Positions 10,720 through 28,673 of a DNA stretch of 30,198 nt are shown here, piece after piece. The stretch is taken from IMG/VR virus record IMGVR_UViG_3300046012_000574, positions 1-30,198 of that record, one strand, 5' to 3'. This DNA is from a virus. Each line of letters begins with the position of its first letter. Position 1 is the first letter of the stretch. A model generated the notes under the pieces. The model made no database searches. It was not told where the DNA came from and saw nothing but the letters and a program-made list of their open reading frames with translations. The position numbers and the translations under genes were made by a program.

Positions 10720-10749
10720 ATTCTGTTCTCTTGATCGCGTTTCGTCAAA
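10720..10749 (-). promoter_or_regulatory. Leftward promoter of the antisense membrane gene
   Basis: On the minus strand TTTGACG (-35; 10749-10743) is followed after exactly 17 bases by CAGAAT (-10; 10725-10720), then TGCG. The predicted start is about 20 bases before the gene's ATG at 10694, with GGGAG in between. It shares the TTTGACG -35 and a GCG after the -10 with two other leftward promoters in the window. Confidence 0.5.
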
Positions 10750-10784
10750 TCGGCCATTTCCACACTCTTAACGGTGAATTTTAG

Positions 10785-12410
10785 ATGGCCGTAAAAAGCA
10801 TTATCGATGTCGAGATGAACGATGAGGCGTTCAAGCGCTTCAACGATCTCTTCAACCAGTATCGGGCGAAGCTTGCCGAGACGCCGGCGGCTGTCGGCGC
10901 GGTAAACGAAGAGATCAAGAATTCAGAGGTGGGCTACAGTGCGGTCGTGGCAGCCATCTTCGCGCAGACGCAGGTTTTGAATAGCGCGCTGACGGCGCAG
11001 CAAAAATACAATAAAGAGGTCGATAAGAGCGCCCATTCGTGGTCGACGATCGCCAAGACCACCAAATCCGCGGTGGCCGATATCATTGCCGGGACCACAG
11101 CGATCTTGCGCTTCGCCTCATTGGGCGGCGCTCTTTCGGGGCTGCTTGGTATTGGCGGCATCTTTGGGCTCGACAAGCTCGGACAAGGCGTCAGCAACGC
11201 GCGGCGGACCGCCCAGGGGGTCGGCGCCTCGATCGGCGAGCAGCAGGCGTTAAATCTGTCGTTCGGCCGCTACATCGATACGCAGGGCCTGACGGGCGGG
11301 ATCAACGATGCGCTGACCGATCCGGCGAAGCGTTTTGCGCTCATCGGCCTCGGGGCGAGCCAATCGGATATCGCCGGCGGTGATTCGGTCAAGATCGCGA
11401 ACGATGTCCTGCCCAACCTCAAGAAGCTGGCGGACCAGACCCCGACCGAATTCCTCGCGCCGGCGTTGCAGGCGAGGGGTCTGCAAGGGGTTTTCTCACC
11501 CGAGGATCTGCGCCGGCTGAAATCGCTGTCCCCGGAAGAGTTTCAGGCCGCGCAGGCGCAGAATTCGGAATACGCGAAAAAGCTTACCGTCACCGATGCC
11601 GACGCGCGCGCGTGGCAGGATTTCGTGACTCAGCTGAAGCTGGCCGGCCAGGAGATCGAGAACATCCTCGTCAAAGGCCTGGCGCCTCTCGCCGCCCCGC
11701 TCAAGGATCTCTCCAAGGCTTTCGCCGATGTCGTCGCGGTGTTCCTACAGGCGGCGAAGGATCAGGGCTGGATTCAGAGCATCTCGGCCGGTCTCGAAGA
11801 GTTCGCCAAATATATCGGTACGCAAGATTTTCGGGACAACATCAAGGAGTTCGTCGACGATGTCGCGCTCGTCGCCAAGGCGATGGTGAATGCCTTGAAG
11901 TGGCTGGGCGTCATTCCCGACAAGGACGCCAAGCCGTCTGACGGGAAACCTGCGCTCGAGGGGCAACCTTCCTATATCGGTCCCGACATGGGCGTCGATC
12001 CGCTTCATCCGTTTGCCCGCGGCGGCCGGCACAATGTCGGAAATTTGCGTAATCCGAACGGCAGCGGATTTCAGACATTCGCCAACGATGACGACGGTGT
12101 CCGTGCCATCGCCAAACAGTTGCAGATTTATCAGGATCGCGATCATCTCGACACGATCCGCGAGATCGAATCGAGATACTCGCCCGCTAATGAAAACGAT
12201 ACCCAGCAGCTGATCAAGAACGCCGTCAACCAGACCGGATACGGACCGGATCAGCACCTCGATCTGCACGACAAGACCCAACTTGCAGCGATCGTCGCAG
12301 CGATCACCAAGCAAGAAGGCGTTAAGAGCTATTCGCCCGGCGCCGTTGTCACGATCATGAATCAGACGGGCGGCAATACGATCGTCACCACATCACAGTT
12401 GCCGCAGTAG
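10785..12410 (+). CDS. Tape measure protein with muramidase-like C-terminal domain
   Basis: A 541-residue protein that should set tail length and lie inside the tube. The N-terminal 90 residues are helical coiled-coil-like. A hydrophobic Gly/Ala/Leu-rich stretch (about 100-130, LRFASLGGALSGLLGIGGIFG) could cross the host membrane. Residues 210-385 are helical. From about 416 there is a distinct domain, NVGNLRNP ... FQTFANDDDGVRAIAKQL ... RYSPANENDT ... GYGPDQHLDLHD, resembling the 'structural muramidase' domain of virion proteins that digest peptidoglycan during entry. It is short for a tape measure, implying a short tail (roughly 80 nm by the usual 0.15 nm per residue rule). It lies after the chaperone gene and before the baseplate genes. 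Confidence 0.75.
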   Translation: MAVKSIIDVEMNDEAFKRFNDLFNQYRAKLAETPAAVGAVNEEIKNSEVGYSAVVAAIFAQTQVLNSALTAQQKYNKEVDKSAHSWSTIAKTTKSAVADIIAGTTAILRFASLGGALSGLLGIGGIFGLDKLGQGVSNARRTAQGVGASIGEQQALNLSFGRYIDTQGLTGGINDALTDPAKRFALIGLGASQSDIAGGDSVKIANDVLPNLKKLADQTPTEFLAPALQARGLQGVFSPEDLRRLKSLSPEEFQAAQAQNSEYAKKLTVTDADARAWQDFVTQLKLAGQEIENILVKGLAPLAAPLKDLSKAFADVVAVFLQAAKDQGWIQSISAGLEEFAKYIGTQDFRDNIKEFVDDVALVAKAMVNALKWLGVIPDKDAKPSDGKPALEGQPSYIGPDMGVDPLHPFARGGRHNVGNLRNPNGSGFQTFANDDDGVRAIAKQLQIYQDRDHLDTIREIESRYSPANENDTQQLIKNAVNQTGYGPDQHLDLHDKTQLAAIVAAITKQEGVKSYSPGAVVTIMNQTGGNTIVTTSQLPQ

Positions 12411-12419
12411 GCGCGACAC

Positions 12420-13163
12420 ATGGCTTTCTCGATCGGTCAAACGGCATTTCAACTCGCCTACGAAATATCGCCGATCATCCTGACGAACGGCATCGCGACC
12501 AACATCCCCGGCGGGATGCTGCCGATCATCTCGATTACCGAAGCGGCGAATTTCGTGGCTGGCGTTTTGAGCGGAGCCGACATCAACCCCGACAACTTCT
12601 TCGCGCACTTTCGCCCCCTTCCGGGGGCCGACCTCATTTCCCAGGAAATTGCTCGATTTCCGCTGGCTAACCAAACGGTCGCGGCGAACGCGACGATCCA
12701 GAATCCGTTGCGGATTTCCCTGCTGATGACGTGCCCTGTCCGGAATGAACTCGGATATCCGCTGAAGCTTGCCGCCATGACCGCACTGCAGACCGCGCTA
12801 CAGCAGCACAACACGAATGGCGGTACTTATACGGTGATCACACCATCGTATTTCTATACGAATTGCTTGCTGACAAATCTGTCCGAAGTGGGCGATGCGG
12901 AGGGGAAGCAAACGCAAGTCAACTGGCGTTGGGATTTCGAGCAGCCGCTGCTGACCCTTCAGTCCGCGCAACAGGTCCAGAACAGCCTCATGTCGAAGAT
13001 CTCCGGCGGCGCGCAGATTCAAGGCAGCCCGGCGTGGAGCGGCCTCTCGCAGACGGTTGGGCAGCCGCCGTCGCTTGCTGGGCCGAGCATCGTTCCAGCC
13101 GCAAGCGGCGCGCCGGGCGCGGGGGTTAGTGGCTTGTCGGCGAGTGGCGGGTTGCTAGCGTGA
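12420..13163 (+). CDS. Baseplate/tail-tip protein, Dit-like candidate
   Basis: A 247-residue protein directly after the tape measure. The middle (DLISQEIARFPLANQTV, ATIQNPLRISLLMTC, MTALQTALQQHN) resembles Dit-like phage tail proteins, where a first domain handles membrane of the baseplate ring. The C-terminal ~60 residues are a Gly/Ser/Pro/Ala linker-like tail (GPSIVPAASGAPGAGVSGLSA), probably flexible. Its stop overlaps the next GTG by four bases. The baseplate location is well supported by order; the Dit label is tentative. Confidence 0.55.
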   Translation: MAFSIGQTAFQLAYEISPIILTNGIATNIPGGMLPIISITEAANFVAGVLSGADINPDNFFAHFRPLPGADLISQEIARFPLANQTVAANATIQNPLRISLLMTCPVRNELGYPLKLAAMTALQTALQQHNTNGGTYTVITPSYFYTNCLLTNLSEVGDAEGKQTQVNWRWDFEQPLLTLQSAQQVQNSLMSKISGGAQIQGSPAWSGLSQTVGQPPSLAGPSIVPAASGAPGAGVSGLSASGGLLA

Positions 13164-14161
13164 GGGCCTATTCGATTACGCTGACAGACCCTTCTGGGGC
13201 CGTCTACACGCCGCCATCGCTTAGGGGCGCCAATCTTCAGGCCAGCTGGGCGAGTTTCGTCAGCGGAAAAGATATTCCCGGCGCGCTCAACGTGGAGCTC
13301 GATGCGCCGGTCTTCACGCTCGCAACGCCGATGGGCAGGGCCTGGGTTCGCGTCTGGGGCATTTCACTTCAAGAGATCAGGCTCGCGTCGCAGCTTACGA
13401 ATTTCACTTTCAAGATGTCGGCCGGCATGTCCAGGGGTCTCCCGCTGGCCAATCAGAAGCAATACGGGCCGGTTCTTCAAGGCAAGGTCTATCAGGCGCT
13501 CGGCAATTGGCAGGGCACAGACCAGACGCTGGATCTGTTCATCTATCCGGATGTCGGCACGATCGATAATCAGGCGAATCTCACGCTGCATTGGCCAGCC
13601 AATGCGTCGTTGGGTCAGGCGCTGCAGGATATGCTGCGGACCGCTTATCCCACCTTCACGATCCAGGTGAATATCAATTCGAACCTTGTGCAGGCTCGAG
13701 ACGAGACCGGAACCTTCACCTCCTTGGAGGGGCTGGCGCAATGGTGCCGGCAAAAGAGCCTGTCGATCCTTGGCGGGACAAACTATCTCGGCGTGGCGTT
13801 CTCCGCCGTCGGCTCGACCATCATCGTTTACGATAATGGTGTTCCGCTGACGTCGACGGCGGCGGTCAAAAAGATCGCATTCACGGACATGATCGGCCAG
13901 CCGGTGTGGCTCGACTTTCCGACGATCAGCTTCAAAACCGTGATGCGGTCGGATATCTCGATCGGCGATTATATCGAGCTCCCGCCCAATGTCGCGACGG
14001 CCACACCAGGGTCATTGATCGGCACGCCTTTGCGATCGTCTTTTGTGGTGCAGGGGACATATCAGGTTCAAGTCGTGCGGCATCTTGGAAACTTTCGGCA
14101 GCCCGATGCCGATTCCTGGGTCACCGCGTTCAACGCCTATCCAGTGATGACACCGTCCTGA
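13160..14161 (+). CDS. Baseplate hub protein
   Basis: A 333-residue protein from a GTG overlapping the previous stop. It shows hub-type segments: an N-terminal strand domain with SFVSGKDIPGALNVELDAPV, a middle with GPVLQGKVYQALGNWQGTDQTLDLFI, and LAQWCRQKSLSILGG followed by a beta domain ending in YQVQVVRHLGNFRQPDADSWVT. This domain order fits T4 gp27 / Mu gp44 type hubs, on which the spike sits. The next gene is a spike protein, as expected. The length is normal. Confidence 0.65.
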   Translation: MRAYSITLTDPSGAVYTPPSLRGANLQASWASFVSGKDIPGALNVELDAPVFTLATPMGRAWVRVWGISLQEIRLASQLTNFTFKMSAGMSRGLPLANQKQYGPVLQGKVYQALGNWQGTDQTLDLFIYPDVGTIDNQANLTLHWPANASLGQALQDMLRTAYPTFTIQVNINSNLVQARDETGTFTSLEGLAQWCRQKSLSILGGTNYLGVAFSAVGSTIIVYDNGVPLTSTAAVKKIAFTDMIGQPVWLDFPTISFKTVMRSDISIGDYIELPPNVATATPGSLIGTPLRSSFVVQGTYQVQVVRHLGNFRQPDADSWVTAFNAYPVMTPS

Positions 14162-14162
14162 C

Positions 14163-14765
14163 ATGGCGAACAATGCACAGCGAAGCCACTACGCTCTAGA
14201 ACAAAATCGTTTTGCCGAGCAAAAGGCGCGCAAGGCGATCGACACGATTGGGCAGGCCTTGCCGTGTCGGGTGGTGGCGATTTCGGGTTCTATTGTCACG
14301 GTGTCATTCGAGGTCAATTCGGCGCCTTACACGCTGCCGCATGTGACCATCCCGGTGGCGCAGTCGCACTATTTCTTTCAGCCGATCCAGATCGGCGATT
14401 TCGGCGTGACGGTTCCGGCCGATGTCTATCTCGGCGGGGTCAGCGGTCTCGGGGGCGGCACGCCGGACCTGACGCTGCCGGCGACACTTGCGGCCCTGTT
14501 GTTCGTTCCTGTTGCCAACAAGGCTTGGGTGCCGACCGATCCCGACAAGGCAGAAATCTTCGGTCCCGCCGGAACAATTATCCGCAATGGTGCGGGTGAT
14601 TCGATCGTCACGGTAGCGAATGATTCGATAACGCTGAGCGTGGCGGGGCATAGCATCGTGATTAATGCGGACGGCGTCACGATCGACGGAATTCTTTGGG
14701 ACACGCATGAGCACGGCGGCGTCGTGCAGGGCGGCGACAAGACAACTGGTCCGGTGTCGCCATGA
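14163..14765 (+). CDS. Baseplate spike (gpV/Gp138-like) protein
   Basis: A 200-residue cell-puncturing spike. An OB-like N-terminal domain (LPCRVVAISGSIVTVSFEV, QIGDFGVTVPADVYLGGVSG) is followed by a repetitive beta-prism region (IVTVANDSITLSVAGHSIVINADGV read in strands of about six residues). The tip carries H182-x-H184 in DTHEHGG followed by GDKTTGPVSP, the pattern of spikes that bind an iron ion with paired histidines at the trimer tip. Its ATG lies one base beyond the hub stop. It overlaps the next gene by four bases. No lysozyme domain is fused, so peptidoglycan digestion is left to other proteins. Confidence 0.8.
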   Translation: MANNAQRSHYALEQNRFAEQKARKAIDTIGQALPCRVVAISGSIVTVSFEVNSAPYTLPHVTIPVAQSHYFFQPIQIGDFGVTVPADVYLGGVSGLGGGTPDLTLPATLAALLFVPVANKAWVPTDPDKAEIFGPAGTIIRNGAGDSIVTVANDSITLSVAGHSIVINADGVTIDGILWDTHEHGGVVQGGDKTTGPVSP

Positions 14766-15106
14766 GAGTGTGGGGAAGGGTCACCAATCAGGACGGTAGC
14801 AAGCCTTGGGTGGAGGTATCGACAACGCCGGACGGAAACAACAGCTACGTCGTCCTGACGTGGCTCGTCCAAGTACTCAAATTGAACCTCAACGAAAGCC
14901 CTTTTGCAGGGGACTGGGGCATACCGGCACATCCGAGTGTCGTTCAGCAGATCGCGCCCGATTTCTATGTGACGCTGACGCAGCAGCGCTTTGCGCCATA
15001 CTTCGCGGCGCTCACGATTGCGAAAGTCCCAGGCCGTCAACCCACTTATGCCGTAAACGTCACCTTCGTTGACGGTACGAAAATGCAAGCGACGGTCGCA
15101 GTATGA
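14762..15106 (+). CDS. Baseplate wedge protein, gp25-like
   Basis: A 114-residue protein coupled to the spike gene by an ATGA overlap. The pattern VVLTWLVQVLKLNLNESPF followed by GDWGIPAHPSV and QQRFAPYFAALTI resembles the small wedge proteins (gp25/W-like) encoded between spike and baseplate J in myophages. It is expected to join the sheath initiator to the wedge. The length fits. The assignment rests on this pattern and on the gene order spike, wedge, plug, J. Confidence 0.6.
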   Translation: MRVWGRVTNQDGSKPWVEVSTTPDGNNSYVVLTWLVQVLKLNLNESPFAGDWGIPAHPSVVQQIAPDFYVTLTQQRFAPYFAALTIAKVPGRQPTYAVNVTFVDGTKMQATVAV

Positions 15107-15600
15107 CGACTTACGTAAATTTCGCGCCGTCAAATTCGTCGGTTCCGCCATTCCAGTTCCAGGCGACTTTGGACGGTACGGTCTACACCGTCTCGACTGC
15201 TTGGAATTTCGCCGCGCAACGCTGGTATCTCTCGATCACCGATCAATCGGGAAATCAGATCGTCACCAGGCCGCTTATCGGATCTCCGGCTCAAACGCCG
15301 ATTACCGGCCTGTCGTGGGCGGGTGGTGTCGTAACCGCAGTAACGGCGGTTCGCCTCGGATTTGCACTCGGCTCGCTGATCAATATCTCGGTTTCCGGAG
15401 CGCTTCCGAGCGCCTTGTCCGGGACGTTCCCGTGCACTGTGATTGGCGCGAACAGCTTCACGTATGCGGTTGCGAGTGACCCCGGTCAGATTCTCACCTC
15501 AGGCTCATGGAGCATCGATATGAACCTTGCCGGAGGTTTCTTCACGCAGTCGACGCTCGTTTATCGCGCGGCATCGAACAATTTTGAGATCAATCCGTAA
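15103..15600 (+). CDS. Baseplate plug protein with inserted beta domain
   Basis: A 165-residue protein. The outer parts, FQFQATLDGTVYTVSTAWN / RWYLSITDQSGN and the end STLVYRAASNNFEINP, look like small baseplate plug proteins (the DUF6983-type domain, as in cyanophage Pam3 plug). The plug fold is interrupted at about residues 69-140 by a beta domain (GLSWAGGVVTA ... ANSFTYAVASDPG) closely resembling the sheath insertion (ADTFTYALASDGG). It overlaps both neighbours by 1-4 bases. The insertion nearly doubles the protein. Confidence 0.6.
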   Translation: MTTYVNFAPSNSSVPPFQFQATLDGTVYTVSTAWNFAAQRWYLSITDQSGNQIVTRPLIGSPAQTPITGLSWAGGVVTAVTAVRLGFALGSLINISVSGALPSALSGTFPCTVIGANSFTYAVASDPGQILTSGSWSIDMNLAGGFFTQSTLVYRAASNNFEINP

Positions 15601-16817
15601 TGGCTATCGATGTCCCGCTGAACATAACGGAATCGGGACCGATTCCGACCCCGCCGGCCACACTTCGGCAAACGCTCGTGACGAGCGTTGCGGCACAGGT
15701 TCCCGACTATACGTCCGATCTCCCGGGCACCTTGATCGAGGACGTGGCCAGCACGGACACGGGCGCCCTGGCGATGATCGATCAGGCGCGAGTCGATGCG
15801 ATCCAAGCTCTTGCCATTGTTGCGAATGCCTACCTCACCATTCAGTTGGGCCAGCAAACAGGCATCCTGCAAGGGGAGGGGTCAAACACTAGCGTCAATA
15901 TTGTCTTCTCGACGCCCAGCTCAGGTGCCGGTTCTTCGCCTGGCTACGTGATAGCCCAAGGCTTTCTGGTCAGCGATGGAAGTCATCAATATCGCACGCT
16001 CGAAGGCACAATCATCGGTGCCGACTTTCTGTCGAATGTCGTCACAGCGGTGGCGACGCAAGCCGGGTCCTGGGCGGTGCCCGAGGGGTCGGTAAACCAA
16101 ATCATCACGTCCGTCCCGTCGCCTTACGCGATCACGGTGACAAATCCGCAAGCGGGCACGCCATCGGCCGCGCCCGAGACCCTGGAAAGCTACCAAGCCC
16201 GTGTTCTGCAGGCCCAAAAGGCTCTCGGCATTGGTATCGTCCAGTATCTCTATACGGCGCTTCAGGCGATCCCTGGCGTCGTGCCGCGCCTCGTCAATGT
16301 CATGCAGGTTTCGGCCGGCTGGAAAGTGATTGTCGGCGGCGGCGATGTGTATGCCGTTGCGCTCGCGATCTTCCTTGGCGTCTCGGACATTAGCCGTCTT
16401 AGCGGCTCGACTGAGGGCGATCGCAATGTGTCGGTGGATATCATCCAGCCACCGAACACGTATTCGATAATCTTCATCAACCCACCGGATCAGGCCGTTA
16501 CCGGCACAATTACGTGGAACACCAATCTGCCGAATTTCACTTCTGGCGCGCAGGTCAATGCTCTCGCCGCCCCGGCGCTCACGAACTACATCAATTCGAT
16601 CCAGCAAGGTCAGCCGATAAACGAGCTCGATATGGTTTCCGTTTTTCAGGCCGCAGTCGCATCGGTTCTTCCAATCTCCAACATCATCGCGCTCGATTTC
16701 GATATTGAGATTGATGGCGTCGAGACCGCCCCTGACGCAGGAACGAGCGTCATTCCTGGAGATACTGAGTCCTATTTTTCCGCATCGAACGCGGCATTCA
16801 CCGTCACCCAGGGGTAA
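15600..16817 (+). CDS. Baseplate J-like protein
   Basis: A 405-residue baseplate wedge protein; the ATG shares its A with the previous TAA. Typical baseplate J features are the N-terminal LPGTLIEDVASTDTGALAMIDQARVDAI, a strand domain with GFLVSDGSHQYRT, the central motif ETLESYQARVLQAQ followed by YTALQAIPGVV, and a C-terminal ...INELDMVSVFQAAVASVLPI. The length is normal. It works with the downstream DUF2612 protein to form the wedge that triggers sheath contraction. Confidence 0.85.
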   Translation: MAIDVPLNITESGPIPTPPATLRQTLVTSVAAQVPDYTSDLPGTLIEDVASTDTGALAMIDQARVDAIQALAIVANAYLTIQLGQQTGILQGEGSNTSVNIVFSTPSSGAGSSPGYVIAQGFLVSDGSHQYRTLEGTIIGADFLSNVVTAVATQAGSWAVPEGSVNQIITSVPSPYAITVTNPQAGTPSAAPETLESYQARVLQAQKALGIGIVQYLYTALQAIPGVVPRLVNVMQVSAGWKVIVGGGDVYAVALAIFLGVSDISRLSGSTEGDRNVSVDIIQPPNTYSIIFINPPDQAVTGTITWNTNLPNFTSGAQVNALAAPALTNYINSIQQGQPINELDMVSVFQAAVASVLPISNIIALDFDIEIDGVETAPDAGTSVIPGDTESYFSASNAAFTVTQG

Positions 16818-16820
16818 GAA

Positions 16821-17798
16821 GTGACGGATATCCCGACGCAGCAAACGTCCGCACTGCGGGTGCTACCCAGCTACGTCTATCAAGAATTTAGCGATAGCGA
16901 CAGCCTGCAGGCGTTTGCCTCGGCCTATAACCAAATCGCCCAGGGTTACCTGGATTGGTTCAACGAAACGCCGTTGCCGGTCTACACGAGCGACAGCATA
17001 AACGGTTTCTTGCTGGATTGGATTGGAACTCGGCTATACGACATCCGCCGCCCTGTGATCGGGTCCATGACCACCTTCAACGCGGGAGCGGTCAACACCT
17101 TCACGATCAACACGATCCCGGTCAATGCGTCTACGCACACGACGAGCGGAACTGCCAGCGCGGTTTCGGACGACATCTACAAGCGCGTGCTGACGTGGTG
17201 GCTGTATTCGGGTGATGGCAAGGTAACGTCGATCGACTGGGTGAAGCGTCGCGTCACGCGGTTTCTTTATGGCGTGAATGGAACGGATGCCGCGTACCCC
17301 CAAGAGATTTCTCCCAGCATCACTGTTGGAACGTCTTTCCCCATCGGAGCAGTAGACACCTTTACCGTCAACGCGCTTGCTGTCGGTGGGAGCGGAACCG
17401 TAACGATACCCGGCTTTACGATCACTGTGCCGCCGGGTGCGGCGGCGAATGCGCTTCAGGCGCTTGTTGCGAGCGGCGCGTTACCGCTTCCGTTCCAGAA
17501 TAAGTACACCGTCCTGATATCGGACTTTCTGTTCAATGACGGCGGCCTTGTGGCCCTGTCGTTTAATCCGGGATATCCGACCAGCCCAACGGGGCTGAAC
17601 GCAGGCGCCCTGTGGTCGAATGGCGGCCTTGTTTGTGTCGTCCCCGGTTCAACACCGCAGGCCGCACCTGCGATCTACTTCTCCGGCCTAAACGCCATCA
17701 CGCTCTTGAATATTGGCGGCGCCAATCTCCCAACCTCGAACCCAGGGAGCGGGACCGGGCAGCTTTGGAATTACGACGGCATCGTCAGCATCGCTTGA
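16821..17798 (+). CDS. DUF2612 baseplate wedge/tail protein I-like
   Basis: A 325-residue protein from a GTG with TAAGAAGTGA context. The N-terminal helical part (LQAFASAYNQIAQGYLDWFNETPLPVY) and SDDIYKRVLTWWLYSGDGKVTSIDWVKRRVTRFLYG are typical of DUF2612 proteins following baseplate J. Two similar strand units (GAVNTFTINTIPV near residue 90 and GAVDTFTVNALAV near 176) suggest internal duplication. The C-terminal ~60 residues (AGALWSNGGLVCVV, LPTSNPGSGTGQLWN) are a common phage carboxy-terminal module that probably carries the fibre attachment. Confidence 0.75.
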   Translation: MTDIPTQQTSALRVLPSYVYQEFSDSDSLQAFASAYNQIAQGYLDWFNETPLPVYTSDSINGFLLDWIGTRLYDIRRPVIGSMTTFNAGAVNTFTINTIPVNASTHTTSGTASAVSDDIYKRVLTWWLYSGDGKVTSIDWVKRRVTRFLYGVNGTDAAYPQEISPSITVGTSFPIGAVDTFTVNALAVGGSGTVTIPGFTITVPPGAAANALQALVASGALPLPFQNKYTVLISDFLFNDGGLVALSFNPGYPTSPTGLNAGALWSNGGLVCVVPGSTPQAAPAIYFSGLNAITLLNIGGANLPTSNPGSGTGQLWNYDGIVSIA

Positions 17799-17805
17799 GG
17801 AAAAG

Positions 17806-18948: not shown

Positions 18949-18960
18949 GAGAGTCGTAAA

Positions 18961-19725
18961 ATGATCACGCACAAATGTTTTGGTATTTTTGTCGTTGCGG
19001 GCCTAATTCTGCATTCGCTTGCCGCGCTCGCGCAATCATTCCCCACGCCGCAGTTCAACTCGGTCGGTGTCAACGAACCAGCGCCGAGCGCCGGTAGCAT
19101 TGATATTTCTGGCCAGTATCAGGTCGGTGGGTCGCAGATCAATTTCGGCAATATTGCCGGGTCAGTTTCAACAGGGCAGCTTCCCTCCCTGGGGGCCAAC
19201 CCCACCGCGACCGCCGGCCCCAACGCCACCAATGGCATCGCCACAACATACATGCGTTCTGATGCTGCGCCGGCAGTGCAGAAGGCGAGCGGTTCGCAGT
19301 TCGGCATCGTGGAGGTCGACGGAACGTCGGTCACGCAATCCGGCGGCGTCATATCGGCGGCGGCTGGCGGCCTGACGGGATCATCGCTCGCCTCAGGGGT
19401 GACGGGCTCATCGCTGACTTCGTTCGGTGCTGGGGCGACGCAGCAGAATCTTGCTCTTACGTCGTCGGCCCCGACTTGTGGGACGGGATGCGCTTCGATC
19501 ACGAGCGGCAACGATCATCATTTCATTGCCGTGGCCGGATCGTCTGTCACGACTGTTACCGTGACGTTTGGGCATACCTGGGCGCACACGCCCTATTGCA
19601 CCGCTAACACTAACGCAGGCGCCGCAGGGATTACGATGAGCCCGGTCGCAGGCACAACGTCCGTGACCTTTACCTTCTCGGCTCCCGTTAACGGGAACAA
19701 CCTGACGGCGCTTTGCTTCGACTAA
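18961..19725 (+). CDS. Fibre-like protein with N-terminal signal peptide
   Basis: 254 residues. Residues 1-25 form a classical secretion signal (basic MITHK, hydrophobic FGIFVVAGLILHSLAAL, AQS cleavage site). The remainder looks like a phage fibre: GSIDISGQYQVGG, a GSSLASGVTGSSLTSFG repeat-like region, and a C-terminal domain (SAPTCGTGCASITSGNDHH, TFGHTWAHTPYC, NNLTALCFD) found at the ends of many phage fibres. AGAGAG lies before the ATG. Phage fibres are assembled in the cytoplasm, so a signal peptide is odd; it may be a gene adopted for export or a surface decoy. Its stop overlaps an antisense gene. Confidence 0.65.
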   Translation: MITHKCFGIFVVAGLILHSLAALAQSFPTPQFNSVGVNEPAPSAGSIDISGQYQVGGSQINFGNIAGSVSTGQLPSLGANPTATAGPNATNGIATTYMRSDAAPAVQKASGSQFGIVEVDGTSVTQSGGVISAAAGGLTGSSLASGVTGSSLTSFGAGATQQNLALTSSAPTCGTGCASITSGNDHHFIAVAGSSVTTVTVTFGHTWAHTPYCTANTNAGAAGITMSPVAGTTSVTFTFSAPVNGNNLTALCFD

Positions 19726-19925
19726 GTCGGTTGGGATGTTGTCGGCGCGAACAGCTTACCTTCCGGCCCGCACGGCATTGAAGCGAGCCGCATATCCGCG
19801 CAAGTCGGCGTCACGTGATTGTTAACCGCGCTGTCGTAGCTGGCGAGATGGTGTTCACAGCGATCGAAGCGTGAATCAACGTATACCGCCGCGCGTCGCG
19901 ATGAACACTTTGCGCAATCGATCAT
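19722..19925 (-). CDS. Antisense small zinc-finger-like protein (moron-type gene)
   Basis: A 67-residue protein on the opposite strand in a 300-base gap between fibre genes. The start at 19925 is chosen because AGGGGCGGCAAG directly precedes the ATG. Cys4-x2-Cys7 and Cys23-x2-His26 (with His27 next) could form a single zinc site; the segment is basic and ends in a low-complexity tail. No DNA-binding family is recognised. Its stop overlaps the fibre stop tail-to-tail, and a strong TTTGACG promoter lies about 40-70 bases upstream, so it can be expressed independently of the late genes. Confidence 0.55.
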   Translation of the reverse strand: MIDCAKCSSRRAAVYVDSRFDRCEHHLASYDSAVNNHVTPTCADMRLASMPCGPEGKLFAPTTSQPT

Positions 19926-20820: not shown

Positions 20821-20845
20821 AAGATCAGAAGGACATTGGAGATAG

Positions 20846-20868
20846 CCCCGCCTCGCGCGGGGTTTTTC
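20846..20868 (+). terminator. Rho-independent terminator after the fibre genes
   Basis: CCCCGC-CTCGC-GCGGGG forms a perfect 6-bp GC stem with a 5-base loop, followed by TTTTTCTT. It ends the structural transcript before the lysis genes. Confidence 0.85.
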
Positions 20869-20897
20869 TTTGCTCGCGCTCAGGGGAAGCGAAATAG

Positions 20898-21107: not shown

Positions 21108-21110
21108 TCC

Positions 21111-21530: not shown

Positions 21531-21769
21531 CCAAGAACGAATTCCTCGACCGCTTCCTCGAGCGCGCCGGCATCCCAAAATCCTTCCGCACGCCTGACGG
21601 TGTGAAAGTCGGCGTGTTCCGCCGCATCGCGGTTTCCTGTCCCGATATCGAGACGAGCGGGCCGAATCACTTTCATGCGGGCCGCGAGTGCCTGGGCTGG
21701 ATCCTCATCGAGCCGCCCAACACCCCTAAATACCGGGGCGGCGAATACACCGTCACCGATCACCGATAA
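21527..21769 (+). CDS. Hypothetical protein in the lysis cassette
   Basis: 80 residues from a GTG overlapping the endolysin stop. It is soluble and polar, with a compact-looking middle (GVKVGVFRRIAVSCPDI) and a HFHAGRECLGWILIE segment. It has no membrane segment or signal. Translational coupling to the endolysin suggests an accessory role, but no family is recognised. Confidence 0.6.
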   Translation: MTKNEFLDRFLERAGIPKSFRTPDGVKVGVFRRIAVSCPDIETSGPNHFHAGRECLGWILIEPPNTPKYRGGEYTVTDHR

Positions 21770-21810
21770 CCGCCGCCGCGTCGGTCACGCGGCAAATCAC
21801 AGGAGTTTTC

Positions 21811-22359: not shown

Positions 22360-22568
22360 TGCGGCGCGTGATCTTGCTGGCGGGGCTCCTGGGCCTCGCC
22401 GGCTGCACTCCAGCCGCTGACACGGCGCTCCTGCAGGCGCTGGCGCAGGACAGGAACCCGGTCTGTGTCGATCTGACCTTCACGACACCTTGGGGGACGG
22501 AGCACGTCCAGATCAATCGCCTGAGCGGCTGTGGCCCGGCGATCACGGCACCGGTGGCCCGGCCATGA
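22359..22568 (+). CDS. Small lipoprotein, outer-spanin candidate
   Basis: A 69-residue lipoprotein whose ATG shares a base with the previous TGA stop. The signal MRRVILLAGLLGLAGC has a clear lipobox (LAGC). The mature part is about 54 residues with two further cysteines (NPVCVDLTF, RLSGCGP). Size and place in the lysis cassette fit an outer-membrane spanin subunit, but no matching inner spanin is obvious, so the function is tentative. Confidence 0.6.
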   Translation: MRRVILLAGLLGLAGCTPAADTALLQALAQDRNPVCVDLTFTTPWGTEHVQINRLSGCGPAITAPVARP

Positions 22569-22759
22569 AATGGGTCGTGATCGTCCTCGCCGCCATCGCC
22601 GCGCTCTTCTTCGGCTTCGGCTGGTGGGTCGACCGTTTCGCGGCCAGCGAGCCCAAAAAGCTTTCCGCCGTGATCCCCTTCGGCATCGGCCTGCTCATCG
22701 GCGCGATCGACATGCTGATCGGCGTCATCTGGGCGGGCTGCGTGCTTTGGGACCGGTGA
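22565..22759 (+). CDS. Small two-pass membrane protein
   Basis: 64 residues from the ATG overlapping the lipoprotein stop. Segments at about 2-21 (KWVVIVLAAIAALFFGFGWW) and 38-60 (AVIPFGIGLLIGAIDMLIGVIWAGC) are separated by a charged RFAASEPKK loop. It may be a second holin/antiholin or a spanin partner. It was chosen over a longer frame from 22490, which would run through the lipoprotein gene. Confidence 0.6.
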   Translation: MKWVVIVLAAIAALFFGFGWWVDRFAASEPKKLSAVIPFGIGLLIGAIDMLIGVIWAGCVLWDR

Positions 22760-22764
22760 CGCCC

Positions 22765-23385
22765 ATGGATTGGCCGCTGGCGATCCGCAGCGCCGAGATT
22801 GCGCTCGCGGCCTATGCCGGCGCCACCATCGAGACCAAGGACGTGCACGCGCTGATCGTCGAAGATCCCGACATCCTCTGGATCGGCCTGCGCGGGACGG
22901 ACGACTTCATTGCGGTGCTGCGCGACGCCGCCGCGGCCTTCGAGCGTAACGACCCGATTCTCGGCTGCACGCCGAACAGTTTCGCCGAAGACGTTGAGGA
23001 AATTTTCTGGCGCATCTTGCCGAAGCTGCCGCAGGGCAAGGCGATCGGCATCGGCGCGCACAGCAAGGGCGCCAGCGAGGCGCAAATCCTGGCGGCAATG
23101 TTCGCCTATGCCGGACGGCCGGTGTCGTGGCTCGGGGCCTTTGAACCGGCGCCTGTCGGCACGCTGAGCGGCTGGCTGAAAGATCAACCCGGCATCGCGA
23201 CGTGGCGCGGCGAGGATATCGACCGGCCGCTGATCCGCGATCCGGTGCCGGCGATGCCGCTGGGCAGACCGCATGCCATGCCAATGACCGCGCTCGCCTG
23301 GTGGGGCCCGACGCCGCTGAACCTCGCGAACTACCACAGCATGTCCGGCGTGCTTGAGGCGGTGAAACGTCTCGCGATCGCCTAA
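22765..23385 (+). CDS. Lipase-like alpha/beta hydrolase
   Basis: A 206-residue protein, start at 22765. It has a lipase class 3-like core: the strand LWIGLRGTDDF, then the nucleophile elbow GIGAHSKGAS with Ser100, an AHSKG version of GxSxG with the first Gly replaced by Ala. A late His in LANYHSM is a candidate for the triad. There is no signal peptide. The gene lies between membrane/lipoprotein genes and a secreted nuclease in the lysis module, so action on host envelope lipid is possible. The frame from 22531 overlaps the preceding genes and is not used. Confidence 0.6.
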   Translation: MDWPLAIRSAEIALAAYAGATIETKDVHALIVEDPDILWIGLRGTDDFIAVLRDAAAAFERNDPILGCTPNSFAEDVEEIFWRILPKLPQGKAIGIGAHSKGASEAQILAAMFAYAGRPVSWLGAFEPAPVGTLSGWLKDQPGIATWRGEDIDRPLIRDPVPAMPLGRPHAMPMTALAWWGPTPLNLANYHSMSGVLEAVKRLAIA

Positions 23386-23398
23386 GATGGAGATGATG

Positions 23399-24163
23399 AT
23401 GCGCATCTTGTTCGCGACCGTCCTGCTGCTGATCGCTGGACCAGCCTTCGCCGAATGCCCATCTGCGCCGCTCGGTACGCCGGTCGTCAACGGCATCGAG
23501 ACGGTCATCATCTGCCACACCGGCTACGAAAGCCTGCTCGATCCCGCGGCAAAAGAGGCCCGCGTCGTCACCTACGGCCTCACCGCGGCGCATTCGCACG
23601 CGCACGGCTCACGCAAGGGCATGACGTTCAAGCCCGACGCTATGGCGCCGGCGAAAGATCAGGGCAGGGCGAGCGATTACGCGGCCTCTGGCTACGACCT
23701 CGGCCACATGGTGCCGGCCGAAGATTTCGCGTGGAGCGAGGAGCTCGAGCGCGACACGTTCTCGATGGCGAATGTCGAGCCGCAGCTGCCCGGCCTCAAT
23801 CGCCAGGGCTGGGAGCGCATCGAAGAGATCACGCGCGCCGAGGCCTGCCGTCATGGCGAGGTCGTCATCTTCACCGGGCCGATCTATCCCGGCAAGAAGA
23901 CCATCGGCAAAGACAAGCTCGCCGTGCCGCAGGGCTTCTTCAAGATCGCGATCGATCCGGCCACCGGCTGGGCGTTGGCCTTCTTGGTCCCGCAAGCTGC
24001 TCTGACGAAAAGCCGGGCGGCCGATAAAACCGTCGCGGTCGAGACCGTGATCAGCGCCACCGGCATCGTCTTCCCGTTGCCGGCATCGGTCGACCTGACC
24101 AAAGCAACGGCGCCAGACGCTGGCGTTCTCGCCGACTATCGCGCTGGCCGCTGCAAGATCTGA
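23399..24163 (+). CDS. Secreted DRGH-type DNA/RNA non-specific endonuclease
   Basis: 254 residues from the ATG that lies six bases after GGAG (23389-23392); in-frame ATGs at 23387, 23393 and 23396 are alternatives. A signal peptide (MRILFATVLLLIAGPAFAEC) precedes the nuclease. The motif is D100-L-G-H103-MVPAEDF, where the usual second residue Arg of DRGH is Leu; His103 is the expected general base. The metal-binding Asn125 and the Asn134/Trp138 block (NVEPQLPGLNRQGW) are present. It probably degrades host nucleic acid released on lysis. Its SD overlaps the stop of the lipase gene. Confidence 0.8.
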   Translation: MRILFATVLLLIAGPAFAECPSAPLGTPVVNGIETVIICHTGYESLLDPAAKEARVVTYGLTAAHSHAHGSRKGMTFKPDAMAPAKDQGRASDYAASGYDLGHMVPAEDFAWSEELERDTFSMANVEPQLPGLNRQGWERIEEITRAEACRHGEVVIFTGPIYPGKKTIGKDKLAVPQGFFKIAIDPATGWALAFLVPQAALTKSRAADKTVAVETVISATGIVFPLPASVDLTKATAPDAGVLADYRAGRCKI

Positions 24164-24177
24164 TGTTTTAAGAAATC

Positions 24178-24196
24178 CGACCATCCGAGATGGTCG
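24178..24196 (+). other. Inverted repeat after the nuclease gene
   Basis: CGACCATC-CGA-GATGGTCG is a perfect 8-bp stem with a 3-base loop in the nuclease-to-fibre gap. It lacks a T-tract and precedes the terminator, so a stabilising 3' hairpin is the likely role. Confidence 0.65.
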
Positions 24197-24210
24197 AGAA
24201 AATTAACAAG

Positions 24211-24241
24211 CCGCCGCCCGATCCAGGGACGGCGGATTTTC
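24211..24241 (+). terminator. Rho-independent terminator after the lysis module
   Basis: CCGCCG-CCC and GGG-A-CGGCGG form a 9-bp stem with one bulged base around GATCCA, followed by ATTTTCT. It separates the lysis/exported-enzyme operon from the following fibre gene. Confidence 0.75.
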
Positions 24242-24260
24242 TGTTCCAAGGGAAATCCGC

Positions 24261-25634
24261 ATGCTCAAATTGATCACCCTCCGCAAAATGATCTGCTCCC
24301 TTCTGGTGGGGGTGGGGCTGCTGCTCTCGGGACAGGCGCATGCGTCTGGATGCACCGCTCAGCTTGAGGTGGTTGTTTGCAGCGGCGGTCAGCGTGCCGC
24401 TCTCGACCTCAACTTCGCCACCCTCCCGTCTCTCCCGTCCTACGCCACCTTCACCCGCACCTCAGCGGCGTGGGACTTCAACAGCCAAGGCATCCTGACG
24501 CAGTTCGCCTCGGGTGTGCCGCGCTTCCCGGTCTATGACCCGGCAACGCTGGCCAATCTCGGGATACGGATCGAGCAGGCGCATACGAACTCGATCCTGA
24601 CGAGCGCGGGCGGGTTCTCCAATGCATCCTTCTGGGCGCCAACCAACTCTTCGGCGACTGACAGTAACGTCAATAGTCCGGGGGGGACGAACACCGGCTC
24701 GACCTTCGCGGACAACTCCACGAGTGGCGCCCATTTCATTGCGTCCAATACGATTTCTTTTACGAGCGGGACGACCTACACCTTCTCCATCGTCGCGAAG
24801 GCTGGAACGGGCAATCTTATCCAGCTTGCATTCCCTACGGCATCTGGTGTGTTCACCAGTTCCTACATCAACTTTGATCTCTCGGCCGGGACCTCGACCG
24901 CCAATGGCGGCTCGCTCGTCGCATCAGGCATCATCCCGTTGGGGAATGGTTGGTATCGTTGCTGGGCTGCGATGACCGCCGCAGCGACTGCGTCCTCTAC
25001 GGTCTTTGCGGTTCGCATCAACTCATCGACAGCTACCCGCGCCCCGTCTTATGTCGGCACCGGCACGACCATCATCATCTGGCAGGCCGACGTTATCGCC
25101 GCCTCGCTGCCGCTCTCTCCGATCCCGACCTCTGGCACAGCCGTCACGGTCAACGCGGAAACCCTCTCGATCCCGCTCTCCTCCATCGGGATACCGGCGA
25201 ACCCGAGCGGACTGACGGTGCTGGCGAAGGCGCGGACAGCCGGAGGCTGGGGGCCGGGGAACCAGACCATATTCTCGGTTAACGACGGCACCACAAGCAA
25301 TCGAATGCACATTGCACAAAATGGCGCTACGTCGTTGTTGGCCGCGTTTGAACCACAGGGGTCTTTGAACACATTCGCGCTCGGCAGCGGCTTCTCTGCC
25401 AATCAGGATGAGAAAGTCTGGTTTGCCGCCTCAACGAATAATCTAAGCGTTCAAGCAATCGGCGGCACGAAGCAGACATCCGCCGCATTGCCTATGGTTA
25501 CAGGGCTGACAACCCTGAACATTGGCGCGGCTCAAGCGGCATCCGCGCCATGGAACTCCACCATCTCCCGCTTCGTCATCTACAACTCGCGCCTCTCCGA
25601 TGCGGTGGCAGCGCAGAAGGCGGGTGGGCTATGA
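24261..25634 (+). CDS. Lectin/fibre-like protein with N-terminal signal peptide
   Basis: 457 residues. Residues 1-29 form a secretion signal (RKMICSLLVGVGLLLSGQAHASG). The mature protein resembles tail-fibre/lectin modules: YATFTRTSAAWDFNSQGIL, a GTTYTFSIVAKAGTGNLIQL jelly-roll-like CBM domain, NGWYRCWAAMT, and a C-terminal concanavalin-A-like LamG part (TTLNIGAAQ, SRFVIYNSRLSDAVAAQ). This domain set is standard for phage receptor-binding proteins, but the signal is not. AAGGGAAAT lies before the ATG. It is the first gene of a new transcription unit and is coupled by ATGA to the next gene. Confidence 0.7.
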   Translation: MLKLITLRKMICSLLVGVGLLLSGQAHASGCTAQLEVVVCSGGQRAALDLNFATLPSLPSYATFTRTSAAWDFNSQGILTQFASGVPRFPVYDPATLANLGIRIEQAHTNSILTSAGGFSNASFWAPTNSSATDSNVNSPGGTNTGSTFADNSTSGAHFIASNTISFTSGTTYTFSIVAKAGTGNLIQLAFPTASGVFTSSYINFDLSAGTSTANGGSLVASGIIPLGNGWYRCWAAMTAAATASSTVFAVRINSSTATRAPSYVGTGTTIIIWQADVIAASLPLSPIPTSGTAVTVNAETLSIPLSSIGIPANPSGLTVLAKARTAGGWGPGNQTIFSVNDGTTSNRMHIAQNGATSLLAAFEPQGSLNTFALGSGFSANQDEKVWFAASTNNLSVQAIGGTKQTSAALPMVTGLTTLNIGAAQAASAPWNSTISRFVIYNSRLSDAVAAQKAGGL

Positions 25635-25831
25635 GCGGGTTAGGTCTCGCTCGCAAGCTTTGCGGCTACATCATCGGGGAGCCGATGATTCCAAGCCCGG
25701 ACGGACACGACGCCATCATCAATGTAAAAGCTGCGGAGCCACGCCACAACTTCCCACCCCAGCATCTCGTCGTCTTCGTCAATTTCGATCGGCATCATCA
25801 GGCTCCATTCGCGGCGGAGTATAGCACATGA
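25631..25831 (+). CDS. Small hypothetical protein
   Basis: 66 residues from the ATG that overlaps the lectin gene stop by four bases. It is soluble, with hydrophobic N-terminal and C-terminal segments (RKLCGYIIGEPMI, QHLVVFVNFDRHH). No domain is recognised. The tight overlaps on both sides make it part of the lectin operon. An upstream frame from 25550 would read through the lectin gene and is not used. Confidence 0.5.
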   Translation: MSGLGLARKLCGYIIGEPMIPSPDGHDAIINVKAAEPRHNFPPQHLVVFVNFDRHHQAPFAAEYST

Positions 25832-26205
25832 GCGGGGAAGTAGATTATCTTTGTAAATTCGCCGACGAAGCCACGGCCCAATCCGATCCCGTCATTGGCA
25901 AATACTATCTCCCGCCCTCCGACGATCAGCCCGGCCAGTGGAACGGCGTCTACGCCTTCCCCGCCAGCGTCTATCAGAACGGCGTGCAGGACACGACAGG
26001 ATTTTTCCTGTGGCTCTCGCTTCCAAAGGCCGATCCCGATTTAGACACCAGCCCGGCGCTCGTCATATCGGCGGATCGGGACAAGGCATTGCACGGCGAT
26101 CCGACCTTCATCCGCGCCACGCCGATTCCGAGCGATCAGCTATCGAGCTACACGGTCAGCCCGGTGGTGGCGGGGAGCAATTACCCGTTCGGGGTCGCGC
26201 GTTAG
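25828..26205 (+). CDS. Hypothetical protein at the end of the fibre operon
   Basis: 125 residues, ATGA overlap with the previous stop. It is a beta-rich, soluble protein (LPPSDDQPGQWNGVYAFPASVYQ, LWLSLPKADPD, a final GSNYPFGVAR). It has no signal or membrane segment. Its stop is eight bases from the stop of the convergent leftward cluster, marking the end of rightward late genes. Function unknown; a tail-tip or fibre-chaperone role would fit context but is not evidenced. Confidence 0.6.
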   Translation: MSGEVDYLCKFADEATAQSDPVIGKYYLPPSDDQPGQWNGVYAFPASVYQNGVQDTTGFFLWLSLPKADPDLDTSPALVISADRDKALHGDPTFIRATPIPSDQLSSYTVSPVVAGSNYPFGVAR

Positions 26206-26213
26206 ATTGGCGC

Positions 26214-26456
26214 TTACCGCTCGAAGTCGATATCTTCTTCCGGCACCCACCAGCCTATCTGTTCCGGCTCTAGCTCTGTGTCGTGCTTGCGGTCCATCAG
26301 CCAGCGCGTCTGAGATGGGCAAGGCTCATCCTCGCCGCCTGTGCCTGCGTAGGTCCAGTCGAACGACTTGCCCGCCAGTGACGCCATGCACGCGCGCAGC
26401 GTGTCGGTGTTCTTGGGCTGGAAGATGCCGCGCCGCTTGCGGGGGCCTTCGTACAT
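26214..26456 (-). CDS. Hypothetical small protein, end of the leftward cluster
   Basis: 80 residues. It has a basic N-terminus (MYEGPRKRRG) and an acidic Trp-rich C-terminus (EQIGWWVPEEDIDFER), with SFDWTYAGTGGEDEPCPSQ in the middle. It is well conserved in character and soluble. GAGGGATC lies upstream. It is the last gene of the leftward cluster. No family is recognised. Confidence 0.55.
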   Translation of the reverse strand: MYEGPRKRRGIFQPKNTDTLRACMASLAGKSFDWTYAGTGGEDEPCPSQTRWLMDRKHDTELEPEQIGWWVPEEDIDFER

Positions 26457-26478
26457 GGCAGGTCGATCCCTCGCTCCG

Positions 26479-26652
26479 TTACGACTTGGTGATGATTTTA
26501 AGTCCGGCGACTATCAGAAAGAATAATCCGCACGCGAGCAGCGGAGCAGATTTGGCCGCACTGCCCGTAACGGCCATCGCATGCATTCCAAGCAGGCATG
26601 CGAACACCCCTATCCCCGCGAAGAAGTATTGGCTGAAAGCGATCTTATCCAT
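26479..26652 (-). CDS. Small membrane protein
   Basis: 57 residues from the ATG at 26652, selected because AAAGGA precedes it by a few bases; the same frame is open much further upstream but without good signal. Two hydrophobic segments, about residues 7-25 (SQYFFAGIGVFACLLGMHAM) and 34-52 (APLLACGLFFLIVAGLKII), make a two-pass membrane protein. Function unknown; it lies just after another membrane gene. Confidence 0.55.
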   Translation of the reverse strand: MDKIAFSQYFFAGIGVFACLLGMHAMAVTGSAAKSAPLLACGLFFLIVAGLKIITKS

Positions 26653-26660
26653 GTTTCCTT

Positions 26661-26774
26661 TCACCGCCCAGAGCGTATCACAAAATACAACGCGACCGCG
26701 ATCACCACCAGCGCCGCCACATACCACCATCCGCTCATCCGGTTGAAGCGATAGGCGAGGCGATGCCAGTTCAT
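26661..26774 (-). CDS. Very small single-pass membrane protein
   Basis: 37 residues from the ATG at 26774 (MNWHRLAYRFNR, then membrane segment WWYVAALVVIAVALYFVI, then RSGR). It is basic at both ends with one transmembrane helix. The start overlaps the upstream lipoprotein stop and its own stop is eight bases before the next start. It is too short for certainty, but coupling to both neighbours supports it. Confidence 0.45.
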   Translation of the reverse strand: MNWHRLAYRFNRMSGWWYVAALVVIAVALYFVIRSGR

Positions 26775-27115
26775 CGGCCCCTCGCATCGTCGGCCCGTAG
26801 CTGCGCGGCGACCTCGGGTGGATCGGGCCAGCCTTGCTGACGGTGAGCGAGCTCCCAACTGAAAAGTCTTGCATATTCATCTCGTGGGTAGAACTGCGGC
26901 AGCGGCATGACGATCTGCCCGCTCGCCGACAGGATGCACGCATGCGACCACGGCGAGTTGGGGTGGCATAACTGGCGCTGCTCATCCGGCGTCGTGAACC
27001 GGATATCGCCGACGACGCCCGGTAACGCCGGGGGTGGCTCGGCCGGCGAATCCATGGCGCACCCGCCTAGCGCGAGGGTCAACAATACGGCTAGATTTGT
27101 CCTGATCGATGACAT
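26771..27115 (-). CDS. Lipoprotein with a degenerate HExxH-like segment
   Basis: 114 residues from the ATG at 27115, with GGAG nine bases upstream; a start at 27130 is possible. The signal SSIRTNLAVLLTLALGGC has a lipobox. The mature part has HACILSASGQIVMPLP and FSWELAHRQQGWPDPPE. The latter resembles the HExxHxxGWP core of small phage/bacterial metallopeptidase-like lipoproteins, but the first His is Trp, so zinc catalysis is unlikely. The similarity is a pattern judgement only. It may act at the outer membrane. Confidence 0.6.
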   Translation of the reverse strand: MSSIRTNLAVLLTLALGGCAMDSPAEPPPALPGVVGDIRFTTPDEQRQLCHPNSPWSHACILSASGQIVMPLPQFYPRDEYARLFSWELAHRQQGWPDPPEVAAQLRADDARGR

Positions 27116-27212
27116 TGGATGCTTCTCCATCCTGTGAGTTGATCCAGGCCGGGGGACGATTGCAGTCGTCGCTCCGGCCACCTACGCGGTACTACACGGA
27201 TCTCCTATTCAG

Positions 27213-27249
27213 AGCCCGGCCTGTCCTTCGCGGATGGGCCGGGCTTTTT
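27213..27249 (+). terminator. Rightward terminator inside the leftward cluster
   Basis: AGCCCGGCC pairs with GGCCGGGCT around a 14-base loop and is followed by TTTTT on the + strand only. No rightward gene lies between it and base 26205. It could stop read-through of late transcription into the leftward genes, protecting their promoters. Confidence 0.7.
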
Positions 27250-27250
27250 G

Positions 27251-27493
27251 TCATTTCTGGGCCGGGAAATTCTTATCGAGCCAGCCACGCAGCCATACCG
27301 CGTCACTCGGCGTAATGTCGCGCGAGCCACATGCCATCATGCCGGGATCAGAACTGAGGGGCGCGTGAGAGCAGACGGTGAGCGTGTGCCCGCGCGTCTT
27401 TATGATCGATTGTGGCGCGTCAGCGCGCGCGGTGAACGTGACCGCCGCGATGATGAGAGCGATGAGCGCGGTTCGGCGCATAGAACGCGGCAC
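27251..27493 (-). CDS. Small periplasmic protein
   Basis: 80 residues from a GTG at 27493; an ATG at 27481 is an alternative start (76 residues), and neither has a strong ribosome-binding site. A secretion signal (MRRTALIALIIAAVTFTARADA) precedes a compact domain with two Cys (TVCSHAP, MMACGSRD) that could form a disulphide, and an end DAVWLRGWLDKNFP. It is one of several envelope-directed proteins in this cluster. Function unknown. Confidence 0.55.
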   Translation of the reverse strand: MPRSMRRTALIALIIAAVTFTARADAPQSIIKTRGHTLTVCSHAPLSSDPGMMACGSRDITPSDAVWLRGWLDKNFPAQK

Positions 27494-27494
27494 T

Positions 27495-27701
27495 TTATTC
27501 TGAGAGTGAAGTTCCGTGGAGCGTCATCACGCCGAACGCGGCGAGGCGATTCCCGAGTTCGTCTAAGTCGCCCCATTCCCACTGGTCGTATGGTGGCCCG
27601 AGCATCCTCAAGGCCGTGTGAATGTCGTCAGCGGCGCCGCCCATGTGATCGGCGAGCGTCAAAGACGCGATGAGGCGTAGCAGAATATCTTTGTCCGTCA
27701 C
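27495..27701 (-). CDS. Small acidic hypothetical protein
   Basis: 68 residues from a GTG with AGAAAGGGCCGGCC immediately before it. Helical, with Leu/Ala-rich parts (DILLRLIASLTLADHMGG, DELGNRLAAFGVMTL). The leader is one of five near-identical start cassettes in this cluster. Function unknown. It is two bases from the next gene. Confidence 0.65.
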   Translation of the reverse strand: MTDKDILLRLIASLTLADHMGGAADDIHTALRMLGPPYDQWEWGDLDELGNRLAAFGVMTLHGTSLSE

Positions 27702-27714
27702 GGCCGGCCCTTTC

Positions 27715-27948
27715 TCAGTCTGCGATAAGCTGCACTAGAACGCCGGGGCGAGCTTCCTCGACCTCATCGAATTGGCGCCCGGCCATCATGCCGATGATGC
27801 CGTGCGGCAGATCGTCTTCGCGCTTCCCGCCGCACCATGCATCGAGCACGTCTCTGACCTCCTGAAGCGTCAGGTTGTCATAGCCGAAATCACGCAGCGC
27901 CTTATGGACGGGGCGGCATACATCGGTTCGGTTGCGGTACTTAGCCAT
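27715..27948 (-). CDS. Small hypothetical protein
   Basis: 77 residues from ATG with AAAAGGGCCGGTCG upstream. Helical N-terminal part (VHKALRDFGYDNLTLQEVRDVLDAW) and an acidic C-terminus. Charged and soluble. It has no domain I recognise. The start cassette supports it as a real gene. Confidence 0.65.
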   Translation of the reverse strand: MAKYRNRTDVCRPVHKALRDFGYDNLTLQEVRDVLDAWCGGKREDDLPHGIIGMMAGRQFDEVEEARPGVLVQLIAD

Positions 27949-27964
27949 CGACCGGCCCTTTTGG

Positions 27965-28105
27965 TCAGGAATGAAGAAGCAGTATCAGTTCGTCCTTGGC
28001 GCGGCCGAGACGATCGCGAGCGGTGCGGCTTTCGACATGGCCTTGAAGCTTCTCGATCTTCGCCAAGATCGTTTCGAGCTTCTTCACTTCTTTCGGCGTC
28101 ATCAT
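27965..28105 (-). CDS. Small helical protein (46 residues)
   Basis: A 46-residue protein starting ATG-ATG at 28105 and ending in TGA at 27965. The start follows AAAGGGCCGGTCG, the same cassette as its neighbours. The product is one long helix-like repeat of Leu/Lys/Glu (KKLETILAKIEKLQG, LGRAKDELILLL). Similar short helical proteins are common in phage accessory regions. It is soluble; function unknown. Confidence 0.65.
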   Translation of the reverse strand: MMTPKEVKKLETILAKIEKLQGHVESRTARDRLGRAKDELILLLHS

Positions 28106-28116
28106 CGACCGGCCCT

Positions 28117-28422
28117 TTACGTCGGAGAGGTTTGCAGGAACTTAGCGAGCTGCGTGCGCTTATGGGCGGCTCCACGCTCAATGCCTTCCAGGGAGATCAG
28201 GCCGGCCGAGACGCAGCGGTTGACCATCTCGTCGATGTCGCCAAGCTCGTTCGCCAAGCGCTCGGCGTTGGTGAGGAGCTGACCCGGCTGGATTTCGTCG
28301 CGGCCAAAGCGCAAGAGCTTCGTTGCGCGCTGCGCGGCCTCGGCCAGCTCTTCGATAAGCACCGTGAGCAATTCCCGCTCATGCTCGGTCGGGAGCGGCA
28401 TCGGCGTGACGAACTTATCCAT
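28117..28422 (-). CDS. MazG-like nucleotide pyrophosphohydrolase-fold protein
   Basis: A 101-residue all-helical protein. E24-E25-x2-E28 and E59-x2-D62 (NELGDIDEM) give the EExxE / ExxD pair that binds Mg2+ in MazG-type NTP pyrophosphohydrolases. TLLRFGRDEIQPGQLL-type residues between are usual for small phage versions. GAAAGGGCCCGAGC precedes the ATG. It may remove aberrant nucleotides or alter (p)ppGpp/NTP levels; the fold is probable, the substrate unknown. Confidence 0.7.
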   Translation of the reverse strand: MDKFVTPMPLPTEHERELLTVLIEELAEAAQRATKLLRFGRDEIQPGQLLTNAERLANELGDIDEMVNRCVSAGLISLEGIERGAAHKRTQLAKFLQTSPT

Positions 28423-28434
28423 GCTCGGGCCCTT

Positions 28435-28614
28435 TCAGGTCTGAGGACAAACGAGGCGTGCGGCACGGAAGCATTCCTCTTGGTAAACAGCGCAGATGGG
28501 AGAATCCTCGCCATGTTCATCGATAATAAACTGCGGGATTTCAGACGCCATGCGCGAGACGATTTCGCGGGCGATAGCTTCCCGTGCGATCTTTCTAGCC
28601 TCTCGCTTGGTCAT
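28435..28614 (-). CDS. Small hypothetical protein, first gene of the leftward cluster
   Basis: 59 residues. A basic helical N-terminus (TKREARKIAREAIAREIVSRM) precedes a DEHGEDSPICAVYQEECF segment with three Cys in the last 19 residues. GAAGGGCCAGGG precedes the ATG. The promoter at 28641-28673 starts about 25 bases upstream. It is the first gene after the divergent control region. Function unknown; the basic helix could bind nucleic acid. Confidence 0.6.
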   Translation of the reverse strand: MTKREARKIAREAIAREIVSRMASEIPQFIIDEHGEDSPICAVYQEECFRAARLVCPQT

Positions 28615-28640
28615 CCCTGGCCCTTCTGTGAATTTCTAGA

Positions 28641-28673
28641 CGCACCGTATCGCGGCGCTTGCTACCCGTCAAA
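28641..28673 (-). promoter_or_regulatory. Leftward promoter of the accessory cluster
   Basis: Minus strand: TTTGACG, 16 bases, then ATACGGTGCG. As a sigma-70 promoter this is -35 TTGACG, 17-base spacer, -10 TACGGT. The predicted start is about 24 bases before the first leftward gene. The same elements occur upstream of the antisense zinc-finger gene. Confidence 0.6.

Follow-up and report, generated by a model that had tools for sequence, protein, structure and literature searches.

Three leftward promoter-like sites in a soil tailed phage, here called P1, P2 and P3, are probably separate, ordinary sigma-70-type promoters of the alphaproteobacterial kind, each belonging to small accessory genes, and the gene behind P3 appears to be moron-like. 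The firmest new result is that P3 and its gene form an inserted cassette of lower GC content, as judged by sequence comparison with relatives. The window analysed is the whole viral record IMGVR_UViG_3300046012_000574 (30,198 bases, classed linear). Its main gene direction is that of the rightward head and tail genes, which include a major capsid-like gene (2915-3937), a tape-measure-like gene (10785-12410, a name borne by some of its phage matches), a baseplate hub gene (13160-14161), and a baseplate J gene (15600-16817). Relatives of the capsid protein are common among viral contigs and are also found in bacterial genomes, namely a Rhizobiales bin (73% identity), a Nitrospira bin (66%), Paraburkholderia and Caballeronia (60%), and acetic acid bacteria (44%). 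Some relatives are prophages, given that one of them lies on a Paraburkholderia scaffold of 740 kb; lysogeny is known for distant relatives only, and an alphaproteobacterial host is a guess.

The first-pass annotation had described TTTGACG followed by a -10 element at a 17-base spacing at three minus-strand sites, and all three are found at the coordinates given. P1 (28673-28641) reads TTGACG-N17-TACGGT, P2 (19997-19965) reads TTGACG-N17-TACCGT, and P3 (10749-10720) reads TTGACG-N17-CAGAAT, with TTTGACG at 10749-10743 and CAGAAT at 10725-10720, 17 bases after TTGACG. The sites lie 26-72 bases 5' of minus-strand start codons (28614, 19925, and 10694), P1 being 27-59 bases from the ATG at 28614 and P2 40-72 bases from the ATG at 19925, and each start codon is preceded by a plausible ribosome site. 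The genes behind the sites do point against the late genes, as had been claimed. P1 stands 5' of a leftward cluster of about ten small ORFs (26214-28614), with a first ORF of 59 aa (28435-28614) that has no family match and a MazG-like nucleoside triphosphate pyrophosphohydrolase at 28422-28117 (phrog_4856, E 2e-14). Behind P2 is a leftward ORF of 67 aa with cysteine and histidine pairs (19722-19925), situated between two rightward genes, and behind P3 is a hydrophobic leftward ORF of 61 aa (10509-10694), probably a membrane protein.

Read as sigma-70 promoters, all three sites have TTGACG, a 17-base spacer, and a -10 element with A at position 2 and T at position 6. P3 agrees with the consensus at nine of twelve positions, while P1 and P2 have weak -10 elements that match TATAAT at three of six positions. 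The sigma-70 consensus of Sinorhizobium meliloti is CTTGAC-N17-CTATAT (PMC2873474). Aligned with this consensus, which may not be that of the host, the -35 elements of P1, P2, and P3 match at five of six positions with the same spacing, whereas the -10 elements of P1 and P2 match at two of six and GC-rich sequence follows the -10.

The placement of TTTGACG is good evidence for promoters, whose activity is predicted. All six copies of the heptamer are on the minus strand (total expected from shuffles, 4.0), and three of them lie in promoter windows, defined as the 20-100 bases 5' of five minus-strand start codons and comprising 400 of 30,198 bases (1.3%; binomial P 4.5e-5). The same test with all 41 minus-strand copies of TTGAC gives P 0.017; both values are somewhat generous, because the genes were already known when the windows were set. 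The other three copies (27663, 15134, and 11675) fall within genes. Since half of the copies lie in 1.3% of the sequence, the three sites are probably real sigma-70-type promoters. It is unlikely that one or more of them is instead a chance match 5' of a small ORF that is read by read-through or is silent. Sites of the form TTGACG-N17-TANNNT with a single mismatch are at chance level (five found, 3.1 expected), which would suit such a reading, as would the weak -10 elements of P1 and P2 and the lack of usable relatives for the ORFs behind them; however, the placement of TTTGACG, the start codons with their plausible ribosome sites, and the near-exact correspondence of the P3 insertion to one gene plus the P3 site all argue for promoters.

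If the sites are promoters, it can be asked whether they form one class. The agreement of P1 and P2 at 16 of 17 chosen positions was confirmed, and the suggested motif search, run over the window and thus the whole record, finds TTTGACG-N16-ATACSGTGCG exactly at P1 and P2 and at no other place. This pairing, unique in the window, speaks for a regulon in which P1, P2, and perhaps P3 would be switched jointly by one phage or host factor, with ATACSGTGCG as an operator or a special -10/discriminator, but such a regulon is unlikely. Within the window, 45 pairs of sites with the same 7+16+10 layout, mostly GC-rich, are identical at no fewer than 16 of 17 positions. When 41 TTGAC-N18-TANNNT sites taken from the fetched loci serve as the reference, the identity of P1 and P2 outside the core is 11 of 25, compared with a mean of 6.5 (nominal P 0.06). 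The surroundings of the -10 alone are more favourable to a regulon, with six of seven non-core positions identical (nominal P 0.017), but this region was picked afterwards because it matched. The decamer ATACSGTGCG has three exact copies compared with 0.10 expected, the third (10531-10522) falling close to where the P3 gene ends, without a -35 element; this excess was discounted, since 379 degenerate 10-mers of comparable kind are likewise present in three copies on that strand. The likeness of P1 and P2 is mostly that of a sigma-70 core at standard spacing, the extra likeness around the -10 is marginal, and their near-identity is weak evidence that they are under common control.

The proposal of a single promoter class is not supported by the comparison with the other leftward genes. 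P3 had been said to share TTTGACG and a GCG after the -10; the first is present, but the GCG is one base out of register, and P3 has no ATACSGTGCG. A further antisense ORF of 52 aa (25640-25798, minus strand) has an unrelated extended -10 (TGCTATACT) in front of it and no TTGACG, so not all leftward genes share a promoter type. Nor is the motif conserved at the promoters of relatives. With up to three mismatches allowed, 50 related records contain eight matches (each with two or three mismatches) and nine matches to a reversed control. The exact pattern occurs in seven IMG/VR stretches compared with nine for the reversed control, and as all seven matches are inside ORFs of at least 150 aa, the pattern was rejected as a recurrent viral promoter class. 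In five bacterial genomes carrying relatives there is a slight excess (132 matches, 99 for the control), with none having fewer than two mismatches. Given no excess in the 50 relatives or in IMG/VR, the motif is not a promoter class common to relatives or to viruses at large, and what remains is a class confined to this phage and based on two sites.

A possible regulator for such a private class is encoded divergently from P1. This protein of 55 aa (28694-28861, plus strand) resembles a ribbon-helix-helix protein by eye only; nothing useful came from searches of Pfam, PDB sequences, or folds, and AlphaFold2 run from one sequence predicts two helices with a mean pLDDT of 72. Among the 50 related records there is one homologue (G034), which is likewise divergent from a small ORF. 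The arrangement suggests that the protein may exert local control at P1. A small regulator-like protein at this position is also consistent with the regulon, and in the phage-specific version P1 and P2 alone would have in common an operator or -10/discriminator of the CGGTGCG type, perhaps controlled by the 28694 protein, with the leftward genes turned on separately from the late genes; that version is very unlikely.

The preferred reading, separate promoters, gains support from P3, where the insertion can be seen against relatives. The probable tail chaperone gene (9773-10384) precedes the tape-measure gene, and its end is overlapped by a rightward frame (10195-10512) that is conserved in relatives and is probably a tail-chaperone extension made by frameshift. 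The distance from the chaperone gene to the tape-measure gene is 400 bases in the window, compared with 105-131 bases in 29 of 32 relatives, where it is taken up by the overlapping frame. In the window the frame ends at 10512 and the first base of the tape-measure gene is 10785, which leaves 272 extra bases (10513-10784) containing P3 and almost the whole of its gene. The insertion has a GC content of 52% (0.522), compared with 60% (0.601) in the surrounding late genes. In the other three relatives (L012, L083, and L127) the slot spans 335, 563, and 815 bases and carries inserts that differ from the P3 gene, one of them a likely GIY-YIG endonuclease. With these differing inserts, the chaperone/tape-measure slot looks like an insertion hot spot. 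No relatives of the 61 aa ORF itself were found, and since nearly all relatives lack the gene in this slot, it is not a core gene of the phage. At the other sites, the P1 cluster, the P2 gene, and their neighbours have no usable relatives, none being found for the 67 aa ORF or for the gene adjoining P2 that was sought as an anchor, and the only small-gene relatives found were a partial match and a MazG-like ORF whose neighbourhood is unrelated.

The features of the P3 insertion are close to those by which morons are recognised. A moron is an additional gene that separates genes adjoining each other in relatives, with its own upstream sigma-70 promoter, a rho-independent terminator downstream, a differing GC content, and a fitness advantage to the host instead of a core function (PMC5567305, PMC7067206). 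Like a moron, the P3 gene is inserted between conserved late genes, is antisense to them, differs in GC content, and has its own predicted sigma-70-type promoter; unlike a moron, it has no clear terminator. A search of the minus strand beside 10509 for a rho-independent terminator found no terminator-like site, and the gene is therefore termed moron-like. As an accessory gene with its own predicted leftward promoter, it would represent an arrangement that is already known. The closest precedent is gene STMMW_20121 of the Salmonella ST64B prophage, a lone gene that lies antisense to lytic genes, has a promoter of its own, and whose transcription was measured (PMC7067206). The leftward genes resemble it in being antisense to lytic genes and in having their own predicted promoters, but their transcription is inferred. 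An antisense RNA of a Salmonella prophage that excludes superinfecting phage is also known (PMC7067206), and as P1, P2, and P3 all face into late-gene regions, their transcripts might be antisense RNAs acting against late genes instead of mRNAs. This is very unlikely, because the ORFs have starts with plausible ribosome sites and the P3 insertion is almost exactly one gene plus its promoter.

Separate promoters are thus favoured by the placement of TTTGACG, the fit of the -35 elements, the insertion of P3 relative to the 32 relatives, the lower GC of the insert, the differing -10 elements at P3 and 5' of 25798, and the Salmonella precedent; the weak -10 elements of P1 and P2 and the terminator not found beside the P3 gene speak against them. 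Under this reading each leftward unit would have arrived, or evolved, together with a promoter of its own that host RNA polymerase recognises, and each site would drive a small accessory gene or cluster opposed to the rightward late genes. The P3 promoter and gene would have been inserted as one cassette between the tail-chaperone frame and the tape-measure gene. Having their own promoters and a direction against the late genes, the leftward genes could be read while the late genes are silent, and host RNA polymerase may read them independently of late activation by the phage, for instance in a lysogen. Bacterial-type promoters on genes that run counter to their surroundings are common for accessory phage genes. 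The analysis marks a concrete accessory gene cassette in a little-known group of soil phages, and a slot between tail chaperone and tape measure that has accepted foreign genes more than once. Were the regulon real, accessory genes could be located by a simple rule, but a regulon is not supported by the evidence obtained here.

Other features of the record were observed in passing. A homing endonuclease-like gene (8507-9286, plus strand) is also inserted between two late genes, which in most relatives are separated by 13-72 bases. The head-gene region directly 5' of the capsid module encodes a protein of 627 aa with an N-terminal NUDIX domain (1-1884, plus strand), and this protein is retained in 77 of the fetched relatives. 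A nuclease-family protein (23387-24163, plus strand; phrog_14168) has a signal-peptide-like start and is perhaps exported. The leftward cluster contains a strong rightward intrinsic terminator (27211-27247, plus strand), at a point where late and leftward transcription would converge. Two leftward terminator-like hairpins (24177-24235), in the gap that follows the nuclease gene, could stop transcripts of the leftward cluster.
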